From the NCBI GenBank assembly GCA_946481295.1, contig CAMLLW010000001.1:1-64000 (forward strand): a DNA stretch of 64,000 nt. The letters are read 5' to 3'. The notes under the pieces are model-generated. The model was not told the DNA's origin. It did not search any database and saw only the letters and a program-made list of their open reading frames with translations. The stretch comes from an uncultured Clostridia bacterium (GTDB lineage: Bacteria; Bacillota; Clostridia; Lachnospirales; UBA5962). Of the stretch, positions 39,313-49,051 are shown piece by piece; the first letter of the stretch is position 1, and every line of letters begins with the position of its first letter. A program made the position numbers and the translations under genes.

Positions 39313-41352
39313 ATGAATTTAAAAAAATATTCTAAAAGAGCTTTACTGACTATGGCTATTACACTAAATATAAATACTTTTGCAATTGCTAGTTCTGGTT
39401 ATGTTGATGTACCAAAAGATCATTGGGCATATAATTCTATATCTAATATATCTAAAAAGGGTTATATAGTTGGTAATGGTGCTGGTGAATATAAACCTAA
39501 TAATCCTATAGATAAATTTGAGACTGCAAAAATATTAGCTGTTGTTTCAGGATATAAGTATGCAGATATAACTTTAGATGAAAAGACATTTTATGATAAT
39601 GCATATAATAAGCATAAAAAGTTAATAGCTGAGTACAGTAAAAAGTTTACTAAGTGGAATAGTACAGCAGATAGAGAAATATCATTTTTACTAGAAAAAG
39701 GAATATTAATACCATCAGACTTAGACCAATTTGTAATACTAGGTGCTAATAAAAAAGAACAATTAAGAGCATTATCTAGACAAGAAATTTCTGTTTTTTT
39801 AACTAAAATAATGCAAGATGAGTATTTTGCTTTAAATGGAGAATATACTAATCCTTTTAAAGATGATAAAAATATAAATGCTAATGCAAAACCTTATGTT
39901 TATTTTTTAAGAAATAAAGGAGTATTATCTGGTGATAACAATAATAACTTTAATCCAAATGGAGCTGTAACACGAGCAGAATTTGCAGTCATGTTAGATA
40001 AAGTATTAAATATAATTAATAAAGAAGGAAATAAACAAGATAATATAGAAGATAGTAAACAAGATAATACTACAACAAATGAAGAAGTAAATATAGTTAA
40101 TGGTATAATAGATAAAACATATCCTAGTATTAATGCTATACAAGTTACTACTACTAATAATGATAATAAGATTTATAAATTAAACTCTAGTGTAGAAATA
40201 TATGTAAATGATAAATTATCTTCCTATACAAATATTACAGCAGGAAGTAATTTTACAGCAACATTAAAAGATAATCAAATAGTTGAATTGAGAGTAATTT
40301 CTAATAATACAACTAATATAGAAAATAATAGAAGAGAAGATGAAAGTAAAGAAGAAAATAAAATAGATTCAAGTAGAAATAATTTAAATGAAAATAATTC
40401 AAATAATAATATTTCAGATGAAGATTATATTATAACTCAAGGTGTTGTACAATCTATAAATATAGATAATAATGGTAAAAAAAATATTAGTATTTTAGTT
40501 AAAATATTAAGTCCTACAGGGGGTGTTTTAAACCAAACATTAAAATATACTTTAGATGATTTTACTAACATACATAAAGGTGATAATAAAATAGATTTTG
40601 GAGAAATTGTAAAAGATGATGTTGTAAAGTTAAAAACATATAATTCTACAGTGTATGATATAAATATTTTAGAGAAAAATAGAAGAATAGAAGGTGAACT
40701 TGTAGAAAAAAGAAAAGATGAATCATCAGCTAATAAATCAATTGTTGTAAAAGATAGTAGTAATAATGAAGAACAAGAATTTTACATAACAAGCGATAGT
40801 ACATTGGAAAGACAAGGTTCTGGAAAAGTAACTTTTGATGACATAAAAATAGGCGATTCTGTAGAAATTAATACTAATTATTATAATGTAGATGAATTGT
40901 ATGCATATGGTAATAAAAGAGTTATAGAAGGTGTTATAGATGAAATTTATATGACAAAAGATAATTCTATTTTTACAATAGAAGAAGCAGGCAAACCACA
41001 GTCTAAGTATTTTGCTAGTAGTAATATTGATATATCAAATATAGCAGTTGGTACTAAAGTAAGATTAAGTGTAGATAGTAAAGAAATTTTAAATATACTA
41101 AATATACGTAATCCAGATAATTTATATTTATCAGGAAATATAATTTCTATTTATAGTAATCGTATAGAAGTAAAGGAATTAGGTTCTAATAATATAAGAA
41201 CTATATATTATGATAGTAATACTAATTTTATAGATTCAAGAGCTGGAAAAAGCACAGATGTAGATAAACTACAAAAAGATATGTTAGTATATATAACTTT
41301 AAAAGTTAATAATGACTTACAAGCAAAAACTATAACTATTTTAAATAATTAA
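39313..41352 (+). CDS. secreted S-layer-homology (SLH) domain protein
   Basis: A 679-residue exported cell-surface protein. A signal peptide (about 1-27, cut after a typical AIA-S type site) is followed by an SLH repeat (about 29-83, with FETAKILAVVSGYKY), a divergent second (about 100-170) and a clear third SLH repeat (about 183-238, TRAEFAVMLDKVLN). SLH domains bind pyruvylated secondary wall polymers. The rest, an Asn/Asp/Glu-rich linker plus repeated beta modules (about 255-679, such as VNGIIDKTYPSINAI, TQGVVQSINIDN and EGVIDEIYMTK), is of unknown function. ATG behind ATGGAGGT. The M23 peptidase gene follows after 34 bases. Confidence 0.85.
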   Translation: MNLKKYSKRALLTMAITLNINTFAIASSGYVDVPKDHWAYNSISNISKKGYIVGNGAGEYKPNNPIDKFETAKILAVVSGYKYADITLDEKTFYDNAYNKHKKLIAEYSKKFTKWNSTADREISFLLEKGILIPSDLDQFVILGANKKEQLRALSRQEISVFLTKIMQDEYFALNGEYTNPFKDDKNINANAKPYVYFLRNKGVLSGDNNNNFNPNGAVTRAEFAVMLDKVLNIINKEGNKQDNIEDSKQDNTTTNEEVNIVNGIIDKTYPSINAIQVTTTNNDNKIYKLNSSVEIYVNDKLSSYTNITAGSNFTATLKDNQIVELRVISNNTTNIENNRREDESKEENKIDSSRNNLNENNSNNNISDEDYIITQGVVQSINIDNNGKKNISILVKILSPTGGVLNQTLKYTLDDFTNIHKGDNKIDFGEIVKDDVVKLKTYNSTVYDINILEKNRRIEGELVEKRKDESSANKSIVVKDSSNNEEQEFYITSDSTLERQGSGKVTFDDIKIGDSVEINTNYYNVDELYAYGNKRVIEGVIDEIYMTKDNSIFTIEEAGKPQSKYFASSNIDISNIAVGTKVRLSVDSKEILNILNIRNPDNLYLSGNIISIYSNRIEVKELGSNNIRTIYYDSNTNFIDSRAGKSTDVDKLQKDMLVYITLKVNNDLQAKTITILNN

Positions 41353-41386
41353 TAAATATACTAATAAATTTTCATGGAGAAGTATT

Positions 41387-42895
41387 ATGTCTAATAAAGG
41401 TAAGAATAAAAATAATGGAAAATCTAATAAGAATAAAAAAGGTTTTGAAGTAATTAAAAATAATGAAGAGAATATAAGTAATAATTATGATAAGCCTAAA
41501 TTAACTGTAATAAATACAGAAGAAAATAAACAAAATAAAAAAAATAATTATAAAGATATATTGAAAGATAAAAAAAATCATAAATATTTTGTAATATTAG
41601 CATGTATCATATTTTTTGGATTTATATTATTTACGTTTAGTAAAAATGCTAATCAAGTTTTTGTAGGCGATAATCCTGTAGCAATAATAAGAAAAGATAG
41701 TAATTTAACAAAAGATACAGTAGAACAAGCTGCTAAAGCAAAATTAGCAACAGAATTAGGAGTTAAAGATATTAAAATAGATCAACCTATAACTTTTAAG
41801 CCTATACATGTTAGAAAAAGAAATATTAATACAGAAGATCAAGCTTTAACTAATATTACAAGATCAATTACTTATAAAGTTGAAGGTATGATGTTTGTAA
41901 TAAATAATAAAGATATTTTAGCAGTAGCTTCATCTGATGAAGCAAATGAAATAGAAGACGAATTAAAAAAGCCTTATGATAAAGAAGATCAAAATCTTGT
42001 TGAAATTGGATTTGTAGAAGATTTAAAAGTTGTACCTAAATATGTAAATGAAGATGACATTCTTTCTAAAGAAGAAGCATTAGATACTTTTAAAGGTAAA
42101 ACTAAAGAATCTCAAGTTTATAAATTAAAACAAGGTGATACATTATTTGGTGTAGCAATGAAATACGGTATGAGTTTAAAGAAATTACTAGAGATTAATC
42201 CAGGTATGACTGAAAATTCATTATTACAAATTGGAGACAAAATTAATGTGTCAGTTTCAAAACCTATGTTATCTGTAGTAACATATGAAGAAGTAACATA
42301 TGATCAAATTTTAAAGAAACCTGTAGAAAAGAAAACTAATGATAAAGAATATATTTCTTATTCTAAAGTGTTACAAGAAGGAAAAGATGGAAAAGCAAGT
42401 ATAACTGAAAAAATAAAAAGAGTAAATGGTATAGAAACAGGGAGAGAACAATTACACAAACAAATTATATCAGAACCTGTTAAAGAAATTGTAGAAGTAG
42501 GAACAAGCAAAACACCACCTAAATATGCATTAGGTAGTTTTATTTATCCAGTTAGAGGTAGAATTACTGATTATTTTGGTGCAAGAAGAGGAGAACATAA
42601 AGGTATAGATATAAGTGCTTCTTATGGCTCATCTGTTTGGGCTGCAGATGGTGGTGTAGTATCTTTTAGTGGAAAGAGTTCAGGATACGGTAATTTAGTT
42701 ATAATAAATCATGAAAATGGTTATTCCACATATTATGGCCATAATTCTTCAATTTTAGTTAAAGTTGGAGAAAGAGTTTCACAAGGTGAAGTTATTGCTA
42801 AAGTTGGAAGTACTGGAAGAAGTACAGGAAATCATGTTCATTTTGAAGTAGTTAAAAATGGAACAAAAGAAAATCCATTAAAATATTTAAGTTAA
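41387..42895 (+). CDS. LysM-G5-M23 cell-wall peptidase
   Basis: A 502-residue membrane-anchored peptidoglycan hydrolase. A basic, Asn/Lys-rich cytosolic N-terminus is followed by one membrane helix (about 65-85). Then come a LysM domain (about 243-290, LKQGDTLFGVAMKYGMSLKK), a G5 domain (about 292-372) and a C-terminal M23 zinc endopeptidase (about 385-500) with the metal ligands in GEHKGIDIS and GNHVHFEV. It probably cuts peptide cross-links during growth, division or sporulation. It follows the SLH gene closely and precedes the walRK cluster; M23 wall hydrolases are typical WalR targets elsewhere, but no WalR box is seen directly upstream here. Confidence 0.93.
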   Translation: MSNKGKNKNNGKSNKNKKGFEVIKNNEENISNNYDKPKLTVINTEENKQNKKNNYKDILKDKKNHKYFVILACIIFFGFILFTFSKNANQVFVGDNPVAIIRKDSNLTKDTVEQAAKAKLATELGVKDIKIDQPITFKPIHVRKRNINTEDQALTNITRSITYKVEGMMFVINNKDILAVASSDEANEIEDELKKPYDKEDQNLVEIGFVEDLKVVPKYVNEDDILSKEEALDTFKGKTKESQVYKLKQGDTLFGVAMKYGMSLKKLLEINPGMTENSLLQIGDKINVSVSKPMLSVVTYEEVTYDQILKKPVEKKTNDKEYISYSKVLQEGKDGKASITEKIKRVNGIETGREQLHKQIISEPVKEIVEVGTSKTPPKYALGSFIYPVRGRITDYFGARRGEHKGIDISASYGSSVWAADGGVVSFSGKSSGYGNLVIINHENGYSTYYGHNSSILVKVGERVSQGEVIAKVGSTGRSTGNHVHFEVVKNGTKENPLKYLS

Positions 42896-42979: not shown

Positions 42980-43747
42980 ATGATTGTAATAAAATTATTT
43001 TTAACTTGCCTTAAAAATTTTTTAAAAGAAAATATATACAGTTATAAATTAAATAAATTTATAATAAAAGTTAATATATTAAAAAAGATTAAAAAATATA
43101 ATGTATTAAAATCTAAGTATTGCAAAATATATTATTTAGATATAGAAGATAAAATTTTAGAATTAATATTGAGTATAGTTAATGAATATTTTTTACTTTT
43201 AAAAAATGATTTTGATATAAAATATTGTAGAAAAATAAAATTTATAATATATCCAAATTATGATGAAATGAATTTTGTAATGAATACTTTTGATGAAAAT
43301 AATTATCCTATAGGCAGTTATTATGCAGAAATTATACATATAATTAATCCAAAAATTTATTATAATAACTATAGTTTTGATGAATTTAAAAAGTTTTTTT
43401 TAAGAGAAGGACCAATAATCCATGAGATGTCGCATTTATTTTTAGATTTAAAAGCAAAAGGAAATTATGAAATTTGGTTTTCAGAAGGTGTAGCACTTTA
43501 TTTTGAATATAAATATACAAATTTTATATATGATGATGAAATATTTGATACTTCAAATATTTTATGGAGTGAAATGGATAATATATTTAAAAATTTGCAT
43601 GAATATAAGGCATATATTTTGTCTTTTAATGTAATTTTAAATTTTGTAAATAAATATTCAGAAAATGAATTAAAAAAAATTTTTATTAGTTTAAACAAGC
43701 ATTATACTTTCGATTTTATTAAAAATTATATAGATAATTTGAAATAA
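42980..43747 (+). CDS. putative MA-clan zinc metallopeptidase
   Basis: A 255-residue protein with a gluzincin HExxH motif (IIHEMSHLFLD) and a downstream Glu in WFSEGVALYFEY, which completes the metal site as in peptidase-MA-like domain proteins. The N-terminus is weakly hydrophobic and basic (residues 1-12) but not a clear signal peptide, so location is unsure. A strand-rich region before the motif (IKFIIYPNYDEMN, SYYAEIIHI) fits the family. It starts with ATG 42980 behind AGAAAGTAG, between a terminator and the walR promoter. Substrate unknown. Confidence 0.75.
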   Translation: MIVIKLFLTCLKNFLKENIYSYKLNKFIIKVNILKKIKKYNVLKSKYCKIYYLDIEDKILELILSIVNEYFLLLKNDFDIKYCRKIKFIIYPNYDEMNFVMNTFDENNYPIGSYYAEIIHIINPKIYYNNYSFDEFKKFFLREGPIIHEMSHLFLDLKAKGNYEIWFSEGVALYFEYKYTNFIYDDEIFDTSNILWSEMDNIFKNLHEYKAYILSFNVILNFVNKYSENELKKIFISLNKHYTFDFIKNYIDNLK

Positions 43748-43799: not shown

Positions 43800-44489
43800 A
43801 TGAAAAAAAAAATATTAATTATAGAAGATGAAAAAAATATTTTAGATATTATAAAATTTAATTTACAAAAAGAGGGGTACGATGTTATTTGTGCTCTAGA
43901 TGGGGAAGAAGGTTTAGATTTAGCTTTAAATGAAAATCCAGATCTTATTTTGTTAGATATAATGATGCCAAAATTAGATGGATTTGAAGTTTGTAAAAGA
44001 ATAAGAGAAAAGAAATATACTCCTATAATAATGTTAACTGCTAGAGCTGAAGAAGTAGATAAGGTTTTAGGATTAGAAGTAGGAGCTGATGATTATGTTA
44101 CTAAACCTTTTAGTACAAGAGAGTTAGTTGCTAGAGTAAAAGCTAATTTAAGAAGGATTGAATCAGATACAGTATCTGATAAAGATAATCACATTTTAAA
44201 AATAAGAGATATAGAAATAGATTTTGAAAAATATGAAATAAGAAATAATGGAAAATTAATAGATTTAACAAAGAGAGAATTTGAACTAGTAAGTTTTTTA
44301 GCTACAAATAAAGGTAAAGTGTTTTCTAGAGAAGTTTTACTTGAAAAAGTTTGGGGATATGAATATTTTGGAGATGTTCGTACTGTAGATGTTACAATAA
44401 GAAGATTACGTGTTAAATTAGAAGAAAATTCTGATGAACCTAAATATATAGTAACAAAAAGAGGAGTCGGATACTATTTCCCAGAATAA
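43800..44489 (+). CDS. walR: response regulator WalR (YycF)
   Basis: The OmpR-type master regulator of cell-wall metabolism. The 229 residues comprise a receiver domain with the acidic pair in IIEDEKN, phospho-acceptor Asp53 in LILLDIMMPKLDG, the Thr in MLTARA and Lys in TKPF. A winged-helix DNA-binding domain follows (about 130-229, TVDVTIRRLRVKLE). An in-frame GTG at 43788 overlaps the ribosome-binding site AAGGGGTGAT; ATG 43800 has the right spacing and is chosen. The partner kinase follows after 16 bases. Confidence 0.95.
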   Translation: MKKKILIIEDEKNILDIIKFNLQKEGYDVICALDGEEGLDLALNENPDLILLDIMMPKLDGFEVCKRIREKKYTPIIMLTARAEEVDKVLGLEVGADDYVTKPFSTRELVARVKANLRRIESDTVSDKDNHILKIRDIEIDFEKYEIRNNGKLIDLTKREFELVSFLATNKGKVFSREVLLEKVWGYEYFGDVRTVDVTIRRLRVKLEENSDEPKYIVTKRGVGYYFPE

Positions 44490-44505: not shown

Positions 44506-46266
44506 ATGAAAAGTATAAAAACAAAATTAGTATTACTTTATGTTACTTTAGTATTTATAGTAATGTTAGTAATAGGCGTATTTATATGTACAAGTATAAA
44601 AAGACAAGAATCTAATAGAGTAAGAACAGATTTAGAAACATATGCAAATTTAGTTAATGATCAAATACAACAGTATATTAATAAAGATCAATTTAAAGAA
44701 GATTTAAATGAACAAAATTTTTTATTTGGCGCTCGCACAGATATGCAGTTAGCCATATTAACAATGGATGGGAAAACTTTAGCACCAGATAAAAGTGTTT
44801 TATATAAGGATAACGTTATTTTAGATGCTATGGTTGGCAAAGAAAGCTTTCAAGCATGGAAAAGAGAAATTGATGTAACTGGAGATCAAGAAGGTAGAAG
44901 AAAAGTATGGATGAGTTATGCCAAACCTATTTTTGCTAAAGGCTCTAATTCTAATTATATAATTTATCTAAAAATGGATGTAAGTATGCTACAAGAAAGT
45001 ATAAGTTATACGACTAGAACTATATTTATATCAGGAATAATAGCAATAATTATAGCTGTCATATTAGGAAGTGTATTTGCAAATACATTAACTGATCCTA
45101 TCATTAAACTTACAAATACAGCTAAAGAAATAGCAAGTGGACATTTAAATCAACAGATACCGGTTTTTAGTGATGATGAGGTGGGTCAGCTTACAAAAAG
45201 TTTTAATTATATGGGTAAAAATTTATATCAAATGATGTCTCATATGATAATTGATAAAAAGAAAATAGAAATTATACTTAATAATATGACGGATGGAGTT
45301 ATAGCATTTGATAGTTCGGGCAGAATAATACATGTAAACATTAAGTGCAAAGAAATGTTATCATTAGATAATATAGATAATTTTAATTTAAGTGAATTTA
45401 TAGATGTAATTGGTTTAAATGCAGAAGATTATGATGATTTACAAGATATTAAGGATTATATATTTAGTGTAAAAAATAAATTTTTAAGTGCAACATTTAG
45501 TATTTATAAAGATCATTTAGGAAATAATGAAGGATTAGTTGCAGTTTTTCAGGATATAACAAAGCATGCAAAATTAGATAATATGAGAAAAGAATTTGTA
45601 GCAAATGTATCACATGAAATACGTACACCGCTAACTATTATAAAAACATATTCAGAAACATTATTAGATGGAGCAATGGATGAAAAAGAAACATTAAAAA
45701 GTTTTTTAGAAACAATAAATTCAGAAGCAGATAGAATAACATTATTAGCTTCAGATTTATTAGAATTATCTAGATTTGATAATAATCAGTTGAGTATGAA
45801 TAAAGAAATTTCTAATTTAGTTGAAATTTTAGAAAATAGTATTAGACAAAATAATGTAATGGCAAATTCTAAAAATCAACATATAATTAAGAATTTTAAT
45901 ACAGAAGAAATATATACAGAATGTGATCCATATAGAATAGATCAAGTTTTTACTAATATAATATCTAATTCTATAAAGTATAGTCCAGAAAACACTAATA
46001 TATATATAAATATAGAAGAATCTGATATAGACTGTAATATATATATACGAGATGAAGGTATTGGTATACCTAAAGATGATATAGATAGAATTTTTGAAAG
46101 ATTTTATAGGATAGATAAAGCTAGAAGTAGAGCAATGGGAGGAACAGGTTTAGGACTTTCTATTGTAAAAGAAATAATGGATGCACATGATGCTAAAATA
46201 TTTGTTGAAAGTGAATTAAATGTTGGCACTACAGTTATATTAAAATTTAATAAAATTATTGTATAA
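44506..46266 (+). CDS. walK: sensor histidine kinase WalK (YycG)
   Basis: A 586-residue membrane sensor of wall status that phosphorylates WalR. Two membrane helices (about 8-28 and 170-192) flank an extracellular Cache/PAS-like sensor. HAMP (about 193-245), a cytosolic PAS (about 255-345), HisKA with His370 in NVSHEIRTPLTI, and the ATPase domain (NIISNSIKYS, DEGIGIP, FERFYRIDKA, GTGLGLSIVK) follow in the order typical of WalK. Its sister at 287 shares the catalytic core but lacks a clear HAMP. A WalR box lies 17 bases after the stop codon. Confidence 0.94.
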   Translation: MKSIKTKLVLLYVTLVFIVMLVIGVFICTSIKRQESNRVRTDLETYANLVNDQIQQYINKDQFKEDLNEQNFLFGARTDMQLAILTMDGKTLAPDKSVLYKDNVILDAMVGKESFQAWKREIDVTGDQEGRRKVWMSYAKPIFAKGSNSNYIIYLKMDVSMLQESISYTTRTIFISGIIAIIIAVILGSVFANTLTDPIIKLTNTAKEIASGHLNQQIPVFSDDEVGQLTKSFNYMGKNLYQMMSHMIIDKKKIEIILNNMTDGVIAFDSSGRIIHVNIKCKEMLSLDNIDNFNLSEFIDVIGLNAEDYDDLQDIKDYIFSVKNKFLSATFSIYKDHLGNNEGLVAVFQDITKHAKLDNMRKEFVANVSHEIRTPLTIIKTYSETLLDGAMDEKETLKSFLETINSEADRITLLASDLLELSRFDNNQLSMNKEISNLVEILENSIRQNNVMANSKNQHIIKNFNTEEIYTECDPYRIDQVFTNIISNSIKYSPENTNIYINIEESDIDCNIYIRDEGIGIPKDDIDRIFERFYRIDKARSRAMGGTGLGLSIVKEIMDAHDAKIFVESELNVGTTVILKFNKIIV

Positions 46267-46283
46267 TATAAAAGTAAGAATAG

Positions 46284-46300
46284 TGTAACAATATTGTAAT
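46284..46300 (+). promoter_or_regulatory. candidate WalR box
   Basis: TGTAAC-N5-TGTAAT is an exact match to the published WalR direct-repeat consensus (TGTWAH-N5-TGTWAH). It lies upstream of a TATAAT at 46328-46333 and of the secreted-protein gene at 46365, at a position suited to activation. Confidence 0.65.
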
Positions 46301-46364
46301 ATAAATATTATCATAAATGTTGTATACTATAATAGTAGTTATTTAAAGTTAGGAGGCATAATTT

Positions 46365-46811
46365 ATGATTAAGTTTATCATGAAATTTATGTTATGTTTT
46401 AGCTTTACTATATTATTGGGTATACCAGTTTTAGCAAATGATAAAAATGCCTCTAAGGTTACTGAAGATAATATTTTTAATATAACATCTGGAATTGAAG
46501 ATAGCGATGAAATTACCTTTGATAATTATAGGACCATTACTGGTATTGCAAAAGAAGGTACTATTATTGAAATTACAAATATTCTAAATTCAGAAGAAGA
46601 AAAAAATTATAAAATTGAAGTTGGTTCTTCTGGAGTATTTAGCATAGATATAGAATTATTTACAGGTTACAACAATATAGAAATTAAAGCTACAGAAGAT
46701 AAAACTACTCAAAATATAAAACAATCTATTAGAAAGCTAGATCAAAATGTAAAAGAAAAAATATCTTCAAAAGAACTAGTTTTACCAGGTGATAGTATTT
46801 TGATGCAATAA
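46365..46811 (+). CDS. small secreted Ig-like protein in the wal operon
   Basis: A 148-residue exported protein. The signal peptide (about 1-25) ends in PVLANDK with an A-x-A-like cleavage site. One Ig-like beta domain follows (about 45-115, with TITGIAKEGTIIEITNI and GVFSIDIELFTGYNNIEIKA, the typical bacterial adhesion/glucodextranase-N-like pattern). No anchor or catalytic motif is seen. It sits between walK and yycH, where other Firmicutes have nothing, and is preceded by a WalR box and TTAGGAGG. A role as an extracellular partner of WalK/YycHI is possible but unproven. Confidence 0.75.
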   Translation: MIKFIMKFMLCFSFTILLGIPVLANDKNASKVTEDNIFNITSGIEDSDEITFDNYRTITGIAKEGTIIEITNILNSEEEKNYKIEVGSSGVFSIDIELFTGYNNIEIKATEDKTTQNIKQSIRKLDQNVKEKISSKELVLPGDSILMQ

Positions 46812-46827
46812 TATAATTGGTGATGTT

Positions 46828-48165
46828 ATGATTTTTAATTTAAAAAGATCAAAAGATATTCTTTTAATAACTTTAATAATAGTATCAATATGTCAAGTAA
46901 TAAAGTTATGGTTTAATGATTCTCTAAATCGTAACTTTTTTTACTCTTCCTCATCTATTAACGATATAAAGACTTATCAAGCAGAATTTTTAACTCCCTA
47001 TAGATTAATAACAAATTTAGGAGGTAATAAATTCAATATAAATTATTCTGAACTATATAATAATAAAATTAAAAATATTATAGATACAAGTATAAGAGAA
47101 GTTGTAAAAAATGGTGAATATATAGGTACAACTAATATTAATTGGAATGAAATTTTAAAAGAGAAAAGTTTTATTTATGATTATAGTTTTTATATTAATT
47201 CTAATATTTTTGTAGATATATTTGAACAAAAAAATAATTTAATAACTTCAAAAGTTGATAAATTTAATAAAATTATACTTATACCAGAAAACTCAGAGTA
47301 CGATAAATTAACATTATTATTTATTAATGAAAATGAAAATTTGTGTTATAAATATCAAATTAAAAAAAGTGATCTTAACTATGAAATAAGTAACCAAATT
47401 AAAAATATATATGTAGATTTTAATGATTCTAATTTATATTACATATCATCTAAAATCATTGGATTACCATTTGAAAAAAATGTATTTTTACCTAAATGGA
47501 AAGGTGATAAATTTAAGTATAATCAAATACAAGCTAATATTGATTATTACTTAAATCAAGAATTTTTAACGTATGTTGGTAGTGGTATAAGCATGTTTTT
47601 TAGTGATCCAAATTTTATTTGGCAAGATAAGAAGGATGACTTTTATATTTATAGTGATGAAAATGTTGTAGTAAAATATTATAATAATAATGTTTTAGAA
47701 TATAGAAATTATAAAAGAGTTACAAATAAAAAAACAAATATTTTAGAAGATTTTTCATCTGCTATGAGTTTTATAAAGAGAGATAATTTTATAAAAAATG
47801 AATTTTATCTTTCAGGTTATAGTCAAGAAAATGGCAGAACAACATTTTATTTTGATTATATAATTAATAATTTTGTACTTGATTTAAATAGTAACAATAA
47901 AAATTCTAATAATTTAAAACATGCTATTGAAATAACTGTAGAAAATGGTGTTCCTATTAAATATGTAAAAATATTTTATGTATTTCAATCTTTACCTGAT
48001 AAAGTTAATGTCATAAATAAAACATGGTTAGATATTATTAATGATTTGAATATATCTAATGTAAATAATATAAATTTAATATATGGTCCAATAAATTTAG
48101 AGCAAGATTTATATAATGACTATACAAATTTAAATTGGAATATAGAAAAGAAAAGTGAAAAGTAG
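46828..48165 (+). CDS. YycH-like regulator of WalK
   Basis: A 445-residue protein with one N-terminal membrane helix (about 10-28) and a large extracytoplasmic beta-rich domain, the architecture and length of YycH. Sequence similarity cannot be judged by eye beyond the shared layout; the call rests on position after walRK, size and topology. In Bacillus YycH and YycI restrain WalK through their membrane helices. It starts 16 bases after the Ig-like gene with ATG 46828 behind TTGGTGATG, and overlaps the next gene by 11 bases. Confidence 0.75.
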   Translation: MIFNLKRSKDILLITLIIVSICQVIKLWFNDSLNRNFFYSSSSINDIKTYQAEFLTPYRLITNLGGNKFNINYSELYNNKIKNIIDTSIREVVKNGEYIGTTNINWNEILKEKSFIYDYSFYINSNIFVDIFEQKNNLITSKVDKFNKIILIPENSEYDKLTLLFINENENLCYKYQIKKSDLNYEISNQIKNIYVDFNDSNLYYISSKIIGLPFEKNVFLPKWKGDKFKYNQIQANIDYYLNQEFLTYVGSGISMFFSDPNFIWQDKKDDFYIYSDENVVVKYYNNNVLEYRNYKRVTNKKTNILEDFSSAMSFIKRDNFIKNEFYLSGYSQENGRTTFYFDYIINNFVLDLNSNNKNSNNLKHAIEITVENGVPIKYVKIFYVFQSLPDKVNVINKTWLDIINDLNISNVNNINLIYGPINLEQDLYNDYTNLNWNIEKKSEK

Positions 48166-49051
48166 GATTCTTATGAATGGAGATAAAGCTAAAAATATAA
48201 TAATAGTAATTTTTTTAGTGATAAATATGTTTTTGGCATTTCTTACTTTTAAAGATGATAGAAAATATTATTTATCAAATAATAGTTTAGAAAATATAGA
48301 TAGTATTTTAAATGCTTATAATATAAAGTTAGATAATAATAATTTAATAAAGGTATTTAAACCTTTACGCAAATTAAAAGGTCAAACAGGAAATATTTTA
48401 GATAAAAATTTTATTATTGATTCTATCGCACAAGATAAGAATAATCTAGATTTTATAATAACTAATTCTGAAAGTGAATCATATAAAAATTCTCTAGAAG
48501 AATTTTATTTTAATCAAGGAAGTTTTACTTATGATAATTATCAAGGTATAAACATAAATGAAGATAATTTAGATTTTTGCAATAACATTTTAAAAAAATT
48601 AAATGATTATACTAAAAATTTTGTTTTAGATACAATAATAGAAGTTAATGGAAAAACTATTATACAATATAGAGAAAAACTAAAAAATTATTATATATAT
48701 GATAACTATTTAAATTTTTATATTGAAAATGAAAAATTAAAAAAAATAGAATTTAATTATGACAATATTGGAAGTTTTGAAGGTTCTAAGAGAGATATTT
48801 CTTATGTTCAAGAAGTAATATTAACTTTTTTGCATAATATAGAAAATAAGAATTCAACAATAAACATAGAAAGAATAGATATAGTATATGCCCCTATGAT
48901 AAATAAAGATAGTTCAGAGTCAAAAAGAATAATTTTATTACCTTTTTATAGATTTAATTATTATGAAACTTATTTAGGAAATAAAGTATATAACTCACTT
49001 TTAATAAATGCATATACTAATAATATAAAAAGTATTGGTACAATAAAATAG
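48155..49051 (+). CDS. YycI-like regulator of WalK
   Basis: A 298-residue protein with one N-terminal membrane helix (about 14-31, NIIIVIFLVINMFLAFLTF) and an extracytoplasmic domain, typical of YycI, including the family pattern IIQYREKLKNYYIYDNYLNF region and the GSFEGSKRDISYVQEVI helix. It overlaps the YycH-like gene. The terminator overlaps its last codons. No yycJ or htrA follows, unlike in Bacillus; murA comes next. Confidence 0.8.
   Translation: MKSRILMNGDKAKNIIIVIFLVINMFLAFLTFKDDRKYYLSNNSLENIDSILNAYNIKLDNNNLIKVFKPLRKLKGQTGNILDKNFIIDSIAQDKNNLDFIITNSESESYKNSLEEFYFNQGSFTYDNYQGININEDNLDFCNNILKKLNDYTKNFVLDTIIEVNGKTIIQYREKLKNYYIYDNYLNFYIENEKLKKIEFNYDNIGSFEGSKRDISYVQEVILTFLHNIENKNSTINIERIDIVYAPMINKDSSESKRIILLPFYRFNYYETYLGNKVYNSLLINAYTNNIKSIGTIK

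Follow-up and report, generated by a model that had tools for sequence, protein, structure and literature searches.

Why should a gene for a small, apparently secreted protein with an Ig-like fold lie between walK and yycH, behind what looks like a binding site for WalR? The question is raised by a wal locus in the window (the term is used here for the whole 64-kb stretch of DNA that was analysed), which comes from an uncultured bacterium of the order Lachnospirales. It is, to our knowledge, unclear what the accessory proteins of the Wal system sense. Published accounts describe these proteins as varying among organisms, and WalRK as essential in most species tested and a candidate target for antibiotics (PMC9210968, PMC4801191).

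We hypothesise that the Ig protein is a conserved secreted accessory protein, controlled by WalR, which works with YycH and YycI in a feedback loop. We would put this at slightly better than an even chance, on the basis of the following observations.

Gene order in the window

The window carries, head to tail, walR, walK, an ORF of 148 residues, two longer ORFs and then an ORF that we take to be murA-like. walR (43800..44489, + strand) scores 336.4 bits against the model NF040534, whose cut-off is 340, and its DNA-binding domain aligns with the solved WalR/VicR/YycF domains, including that of S. aureus WalR (2zxj). It is followed by walK (44506..46266, + strand), for which the best NCBIfam model is NF033092, at 460.9 bits against a cut-off of 725. 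The 148-residue ORF, here called the Ig gene, occupies 46365..46811 (+ strand), with a ribosome binding site, AGGAGG, at 46351..46356 (+ strand). Next come yycH (46828..48165, + strand) and a yycI-like gene (48173..49051, + strand; its ORF may start at 48155). A Pfam search gave the latter no name, and its identity was followed by sequence only, from where it lies and from how closely it resembles its counterpart in relatives. An earlier, sequence-only reading of this DNA had described the 148-residue ORF followed by yycH-like and yycI-like genes, and the coordinates agree.

Directly upstream of walR, at 42980-43747, is a gene for a Peptidase_MA_2-like metalloprotease (below the Pfam cut-off). 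Since a similar gene precedes walR in six other loci (L012, L173, L174, L175, L177 and L178), the metalloprotease may be another conserved Wal neighbour. Genes for an SLH-domain protein and a LysM-G5-M23 peptidase also lie upstream of the wal locus (39313-42895).

Identity of the Ig protein and of YycH

The AlphaFold model of the Ig protein (pLDDT 90.1) has a signal helix at residues 2–17, a β-sandwich at approximately 38–124 and a C-terminal helix at 127–135. Its nearest folds are a sialate esterase domain (Z 11.4), glucodextranase domain B (1ug9; Z 11.2, 1.7 Å over 80 residues), GbpA and D. radiodurans HPI. The fold search returned generic Ig-like domains only, and comparison of the family profile with PDB sequences gave no credible relative. 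The window protein scores 19.9 bits against Big_13 and 18.5 against Glucodextran_B, under the Pfam gathering cut-off of 27 for both, and PF09136 is matched by 33 of 55 family members at E up to 0.01. Other weak Pfam names for the proteins, such as Asp23 and HPD, were discarded as noise. The description of the protein as Ig-like in the sequence-only reading is right by predicted fold, even though the scores fall under the Pfam cut-offs. Like glucodextranase domain B (PF09136), Big_13 (PF19077) and Big_6 (PF17936), the protein is predicted to be an Ig-like sandwich, but it differs from them in these low scores, in having no enzyme attached, in its conserved C-terminal tail and in its wal synteny.

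The features most conserved across the family are TFD..R.I.G, VG.SG.F, G.N and the C-terminal tail, RK..IK..L..LPG. These motifs and the tail may be where a binding face should be sought. The N-terminus suggests that the protein is exported. The window protein has no cysteine in its likely cleavage region, VLA-ND, its sole cysteine being residue 10, and a lipobox expression fits 4 of 113 family members from the order. The protein is small and is probably soluble.

The protein encoded by yycH, downstream of walK, has an N-terminal membrane helix. It has no match to the Pfam YycH family (PF07435), which is matched by 2 of the 38 members of our YycH alignment (best E 5.5e-4). Despite this, its model (pLDDT 87.2, N-terminal helix 5–29) matches B. 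subtilis YycH (2fgt) with a Foldseek E of 3.1e-12 and a Z of 22.5 over 343 residues, so that the earlier name of YycH-like also holds by predicted fold. The two models thus predict an Ig fold and a YycH fold.

Distribution and synteny of the Ig gene

The sampled genomes were drawn evenly. They are related by descent, and the counts of loci are therefore not independent. Within the order, where the sequence-only reading had suggested a survey, the Ig gene is found in 123 of 392 genomes by match to a single sequence (E up to 1e-3) and in 183 of 392 by profile (E up to 1e-4), five of these genomes having two matches and the rest one. It is present in five of the seven genomes of the window's own family; in the other two, walK is followed directly by yycH. 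A class-level draw gave a match in 104 of 341 genomes, three of them from the window's order, and a phylum-level draw in 25 of 348, the window's own included. The gene is carried, for example, by Clostridium sp. MD294 (ASF356), by Lachnospiraceae bacterium NSJ-143 and by a Candidatus Epulonipiscium MAG. This spread across the three draws rules out a recent insertion or a single-strain oddity. It also makes the gene look like an old component of the locus, and not the extra one that it was first taken to be.

Across the order, yycH lies within 400 bp downstream of the Ig gene in 120 of 123 loci, and walK within 500 bp upstream in 75. Of the three loci that fail the yycH test, two (G298 and G243) have a YycH match 0.5–0.6 kb downstream. 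The third, L133, is spurious and has in-frame stops; it is included in order counts of 123 and left out of those of 122. Outside the order, the class draw provided 69 loci, which are the best 69 of 101, for the most part by order of E-value (9 given and 60 fetched, with 32 weaker ones left out). Among these, yycH is directly downstream in 67 and walK directly upstream in 48. The phylum draw provided 19 loci, from 19 of the 24 other genomes matched. All 19 have walK upstream, and yycH is found downstream in 12 at default search filters and in 19 with the filters off.

The unit also occurs away from walK. In seven such detached loci the nearest upstream genes are not walK but nitroreductase-like, CbiD-like, HprK-like, DnaA-like and others, as named by eye.

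The probable partner of the Ig protein

By profile, 179 of the 392 order genomes have both the Ig protein and YycH, 4 have the Ig protein only, 69 have YycH only, and 140 have neither. The four Ig-only genomes have weak matches (E 3e-6 to 5e-5) and all belong to one family. The Ig gene would thus appear to be dispensable to YycH, because 69 of the 248 YycH-bearing genomes were scored without it. The figure of 69 is an overestimate: re-reading of 30 genomes scored as having YycH without the Ig gene revealed a divergent Ig frame in three, and in one there was almost no DNA upstream. Among the 26 Ig-less genomes that remain, the yycH frame comes within 18 bp of the walK stop or extends into walK in 19, as judged from open frames and not from mapped starts. 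In two, 91 or 264 bp lie between walK and the yycH frame, and in five walK was not found upstream.

Distances between the proteins were compared across 72 loci. The correlation is highest for YycH and WalK (0.90), followed by the Ig protein and YycH (0.80) and then by the Ig protein and the last 400 residues of WalK (0.69). In the 49 loci where all the proteins are complete, the partial correlation of the Ig protein with YycH is 0.44 (0.34–0.55 in 60% subsamples), with the WalK ectodomain 0.24, and with the kinase part of WalK −0.23. A distance correlation is no test of contact, and the tracking of YycH by the Ig protein is suggestive only. Nevertheless YycH is, on these data, a likelier partner than WalK, because adjacency is kept more often with yycH than with walK in the order, and because the distances track YycH better.

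The most serious competing explanation, which we regard as unlikely, though well worth keeping in view, is that the Ig protein is a member of the WalR regulon and nothing else. WalR would then control its gene, as it does those of hydrolases, on account of a wall-binding or wall-stabilising function; the protein would play no part in WalK signalling, and the position of its gene before yycH would merely lend yycHI a promoter. Many genomes do have YycH without the Ig gene, as this explanation would allow, but the reverse is seen only in the four weak exceptions, and the gene is mostly present in one copy and almost always beside yycH, even away from walK. The distances that track YycH also speak against it. 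Its appeal comes from the fact that single Ig-like domains are common as accessories of secreted enzymes and of surface layers. In addition, WalR regulons are described as rich in envelope proteins (PMC9210968).

The promoter of the Ig gene

A candidate WalR box, TGTAAC-AATAT-TGTAAT, is found at 46284..46300 (+ strand). It begins 17 bases behind the walK stop (46266), exactly where the sequence-only reading had placed it, and is preceded, one 11-bp step upstream, by a degenerate third half-site, AGTAA (46273..46277, + strand), which that reading had not noticed. The box matches the published WalR consensus, TGTWAH-N5-TGTWAH (PMC9210968), exactly. No other such match occurs in the 64 kb, where shuffling predicts 1.76, and the whole window genome contains 40, as compared with 29 for a backwards control. 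By itself the box is therefore weak evidence and no proof; the case against chance lies in its conservation across relatives.

For the comparison of relatives, a strict box was defined as TGTAAY-N5-TGTAAY and a loose box as TGTWAH-N5-TGTWAH, with start codons set by script at the first start having a Shine-Dalgarno-like motif. A strict box lies within 300 bp of the Ig start in 106 of 122 order loci. Among the 116 loci with a full 300 bp upstream there are 105 that have it, whereas 200 Markov-shuffled sets averaged 0.05 and never exceeded 1. Over the 122 loci, the strict box occurs 110 times on the coding strand of 35,393 upstream bases, never on the opposite strand of these regions, and once in the remaining 660,179 bases. 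The loose box does occur on the opposite strand upstream (31 of 118 order, 6 of 69 class and 5 of 19 phylum regions), in the examples viewed because TGTAACA reads TGTTACA backwards. In loci that were not used to find the motif, the loose box is present in 62 of the 69 from other orders and in 18 of the 19 from outside the class. A box is found in 10 of 11 named loci, and is absent in NSJ-143.

The order loci without a strict box fall into three groups. Six have a near-match in place, one or two bases off (L012, L026, L030, L034, L062 and L116), and four have too little upstream sequence. In the other six, with enough upstream DNA (L044, L046, L053, L060, L064 and L073), there is no box or near-box near the Ig gene, although L073 has one 535 bp upstream. 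L046 is also the one boxless locus among the seven detached loci described above. As a separate observation, L046, L053 and L060, all of genus g36, keep the Ig–yycH pair and have in common a different conserved stretch, GTGTGNTATAATAA, about 120 bp upstream.

The spacing of the promoter is fixed. In 102 of the 106 order loci with a box, a hexamer with at most one mismatch from TATAAT follows it at a distance of exactly 10 nt. The same position is occupied in 48 of 62 boxed class loci, with 12 more at 11 nt, and in 11 of 18 boxed phylum loci. This places the second half-site in the −35 region, which is the geometry expected of direct activation. In Class II activated promoters of the PhoB/OmpR type, a direct repeat replaces the −35 element at a fixed distance from the −10. 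The Ig promoter resembles these in the place of its repeat and in its fixed spacing, and differs in having WalR-type half-sites and in serving accessory genes of the regulator's own system. At −11, most boxed order loci (75 of 106) have a third half-site, WGTAA, which is seldom seen in the boxed loci of the class draw (10 of 62) and of the phylum draw (1 of 18). In four loci outside the order (L234, L236, L238 and L300) the Ig promoter has at least three half-sites in tandem, following one another in steps of 11 bp.

The window itself is one of five exceptions to the −10 motif list that was applied to the order loci. The conserved −10 position, 10 nt behind the box (46311..46316, + strand), holds only TCATAA, with CATAAA at 46312. 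The TATAAT pointed out in the sequence-only reading is indeed present, at 46328..46333 (+ strand), but it is 27 nt behind the box and thus off the conserved position. It may be a displaced −10, and is probably not the conserved one. TATACT at 46323, 22 nt behind the box, is another candidate.

The unit largely carries its box with it. Among the 45 order loci with yycH downstream but no walK within 500 bp upstream, 33 keep the box; walK was scored only within this distance, and some of these loci are cut by contig ends. Counting all loci without walK in this range, 35 of 48 carry the box, and this, with the single occurrence of the strict form elsewhere in 660 kb, excludes a leftover from the walK side or a chance match. 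Conversely, no strict box was found within 700 bp of yycH in any of the 26 Ig-less genomes, and a loose box in only one. A box that belongs to yycH independently of the Ig gene is accordingly disfavoured, and, by and large, box and Ig gene come together or are both missing.

These observations bear on the direction of control. In S. aureus, box position is described as deciding between activation and repression (PMC10746227). WalR might therefore repress or merely fine-tune the promoter, with yycHI transcribed mostly by read-through from walRK, and the displaced −10 of the window would fit such an arrangement. We consider this very improbable: in relatives the second half-site, with 10 nt between its end and the −10, occupies an activator's place, and the box is kept in units that have no walK upstream from which to read through.

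Probable recognition of the box by WalR

The stretch YFGDVRTVDVTIRRLR, which we take to be the recognition helix of WalR, is identical in the WalR of the window genome, where the comparison was made, and in S. aureus WalR. To look at the box outside the wal locus, seven higher-GC genomes of the order were picked for their low background. They contain 42 strict boxes, 12 of which came without loci, against 8 for the backwards control. Among the 30 boxed loci that could be read, 5 are the Ig promoter and 19 have no obvious wall gene by eye. A strict box precedes an exported SH3b-NlpC/P60 protein in four genomes (G128, G302, G022 and G215), starting 28–37 bp before the first possible start of the hydrolase (L199, L201, L207 and L224), and these hydrolases are candidates for a classical WalR target in the order. 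A strict box also precedes a CAP-domain protein in G057. Another genome (G017, locus L203) has an MreB/Mbl gene whose earliest possible start codon lies 86 bp behind the beginning of a strict box, a possible link of WalR to cell shape. Domain tests covered the CAP protein, MreB and a single one of these hydrolases.

In the window genome, none of the seven strict boxes, all of which were read, is before a wall hydrolase. One is the Ig promoter, two are reversed upstream of a surface-protein gene, and four are inside genes. Of the 33 looser sites of this genome, the reading covered a minority. The surface-protein gene is large and its product is predicted to be exported; upstream of it, at 2170-2386 of L165 (G000:C29), is a cluster of TGTAA half-sites, in reverse orientation, with two strict boxes and one loose box. 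It is possible that the surface layer of this organism is WalR-controlled.

A search of 14 genomes with box and −10 combined gave 16 matches, 8 of them at the Ig promoter; the backwards control gave 6. Few other genes thus share the full motif, and it was dropped as a tool for finding the regulon.

Taken from the sequences, the conserved box, the fixed promoter geometry, the synteny and the joint absence of box and Ig gene strongly support control of the Ig promoter by WalR and the membership of the Ig gene in the Wal locus, both of which had been proposed from the window alone. Many members of the OmpR/PhoB family bind direct repeats spaced by 11 bp, and few other genes share the full motif, yet it is very improbable, a shade more so than repression, that another regulator of this family reads the box, given the exact match to the WalR consensus, the identity with S. 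aureus of what we take to be the recognition helix, and the presence of the box before the NlpC/P60 hydrolases, the CAP-domain protein and the MreB/Mbl gene.

A proposed feedback loop on the accessory genes

The hypothesis of a WalR-controlled partner of YycH and YycI would work as follows. Phosphorylated WalR would bind the direct repeat, which stands in for a −35 element, and would switch on the promoter of the unit Ig gene–yycH–yycI. The exported Ig protein would act in the wall space together with the ectodomains of YycH and YycI, possibly by contact, and these ectodomains would tune WalK. The protein may be a wall or ligand sensor, as the sequence-only reading had suggested. WalR output would then determine how much is made of the proteins by which its own kinase is tuned. 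The loop, which may be of either sign, would act on the accessory half of the locus and not on walRK itself.

In its widest form, the proposal is that the secreted Ig protein, acting via YycH, is a soluble third ectodomain partner of the WalK sensor complex, and that Ig–yycH–yycI is under WalR feedback in many Clostridia and in some relatives outside the class. We advance this more tentatively, at somewhat less than an even chance. If it is true, much of the phylum would have a Wal system that is in part autoregulated, contrary to the published statement that the wal operon of C. difficile is not autoregulated, nor those of other Firmicutes (PMC9210968). What points to a specific missing component of the system, as well as to a feedback loop, is a small secreted protein whose gene has stayed next to yycH in genomes that are very far apart, under a strongly conserved promoter of WalR type.

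Comparison with known systems

The locus resembles the WalRK–YycH–YycI system of Bacillus and Staphylococcus in the identical WalR helix (S. aureus), in WalK, in a YycH recognised by fold, in the yycI-like gene and in gene order. It differs in what lies between walK and yycH: in S. aureus, walK and walH are described as overlapping by 8 bp, and no WalR site is reported from the walRKHI promoter region (PMC4801191), while here the two genes are separated by a WalR-box promoter and the gene for a secreted Ig protein. The Ig gene is not part of the wal operons as described for C. difficile and S. aureus (PMC9210968, PMC4801191), and for this reason the work on those species could not show the feedback loop. 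The phylogenomic study of the wal locus is described as including 24 Clostridia, as an outgroup (PMC4801191). In the open-access literature, which was searched mostly at the level of listings, no description of the Ig gene was found, nor a paper combining WalK, Ig-like and YycH, and the papers returned for WalR with an immunoglobulin-like domain were unrelated by title.

One close parallel is WalA of C. difficile, which is described as exported, encoded in the wal operon and suspected to modulate WalK (PMC9210968). The Ig protein is likewise predicted to be exported and encoded in a clostridial wal locus. In the same account, however, WalA is a lipoprotein with a predicted β-propeller, encoded by the first gene of walA-walR-walK-truA2, an operon which is not autoregulated. 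The Ig protein is a single Ig domain encoded after walK behind its own WalR box; neither a lipobox nor a β-propeller is seen in it, the model being an Ig sandwich. Separately, the WalK of one genome of our set (G004, locus L013) has a gap in similarity at residues 243–344, corresponding to the PAS part, which recalls the PAS-less WalK of C. difficile.
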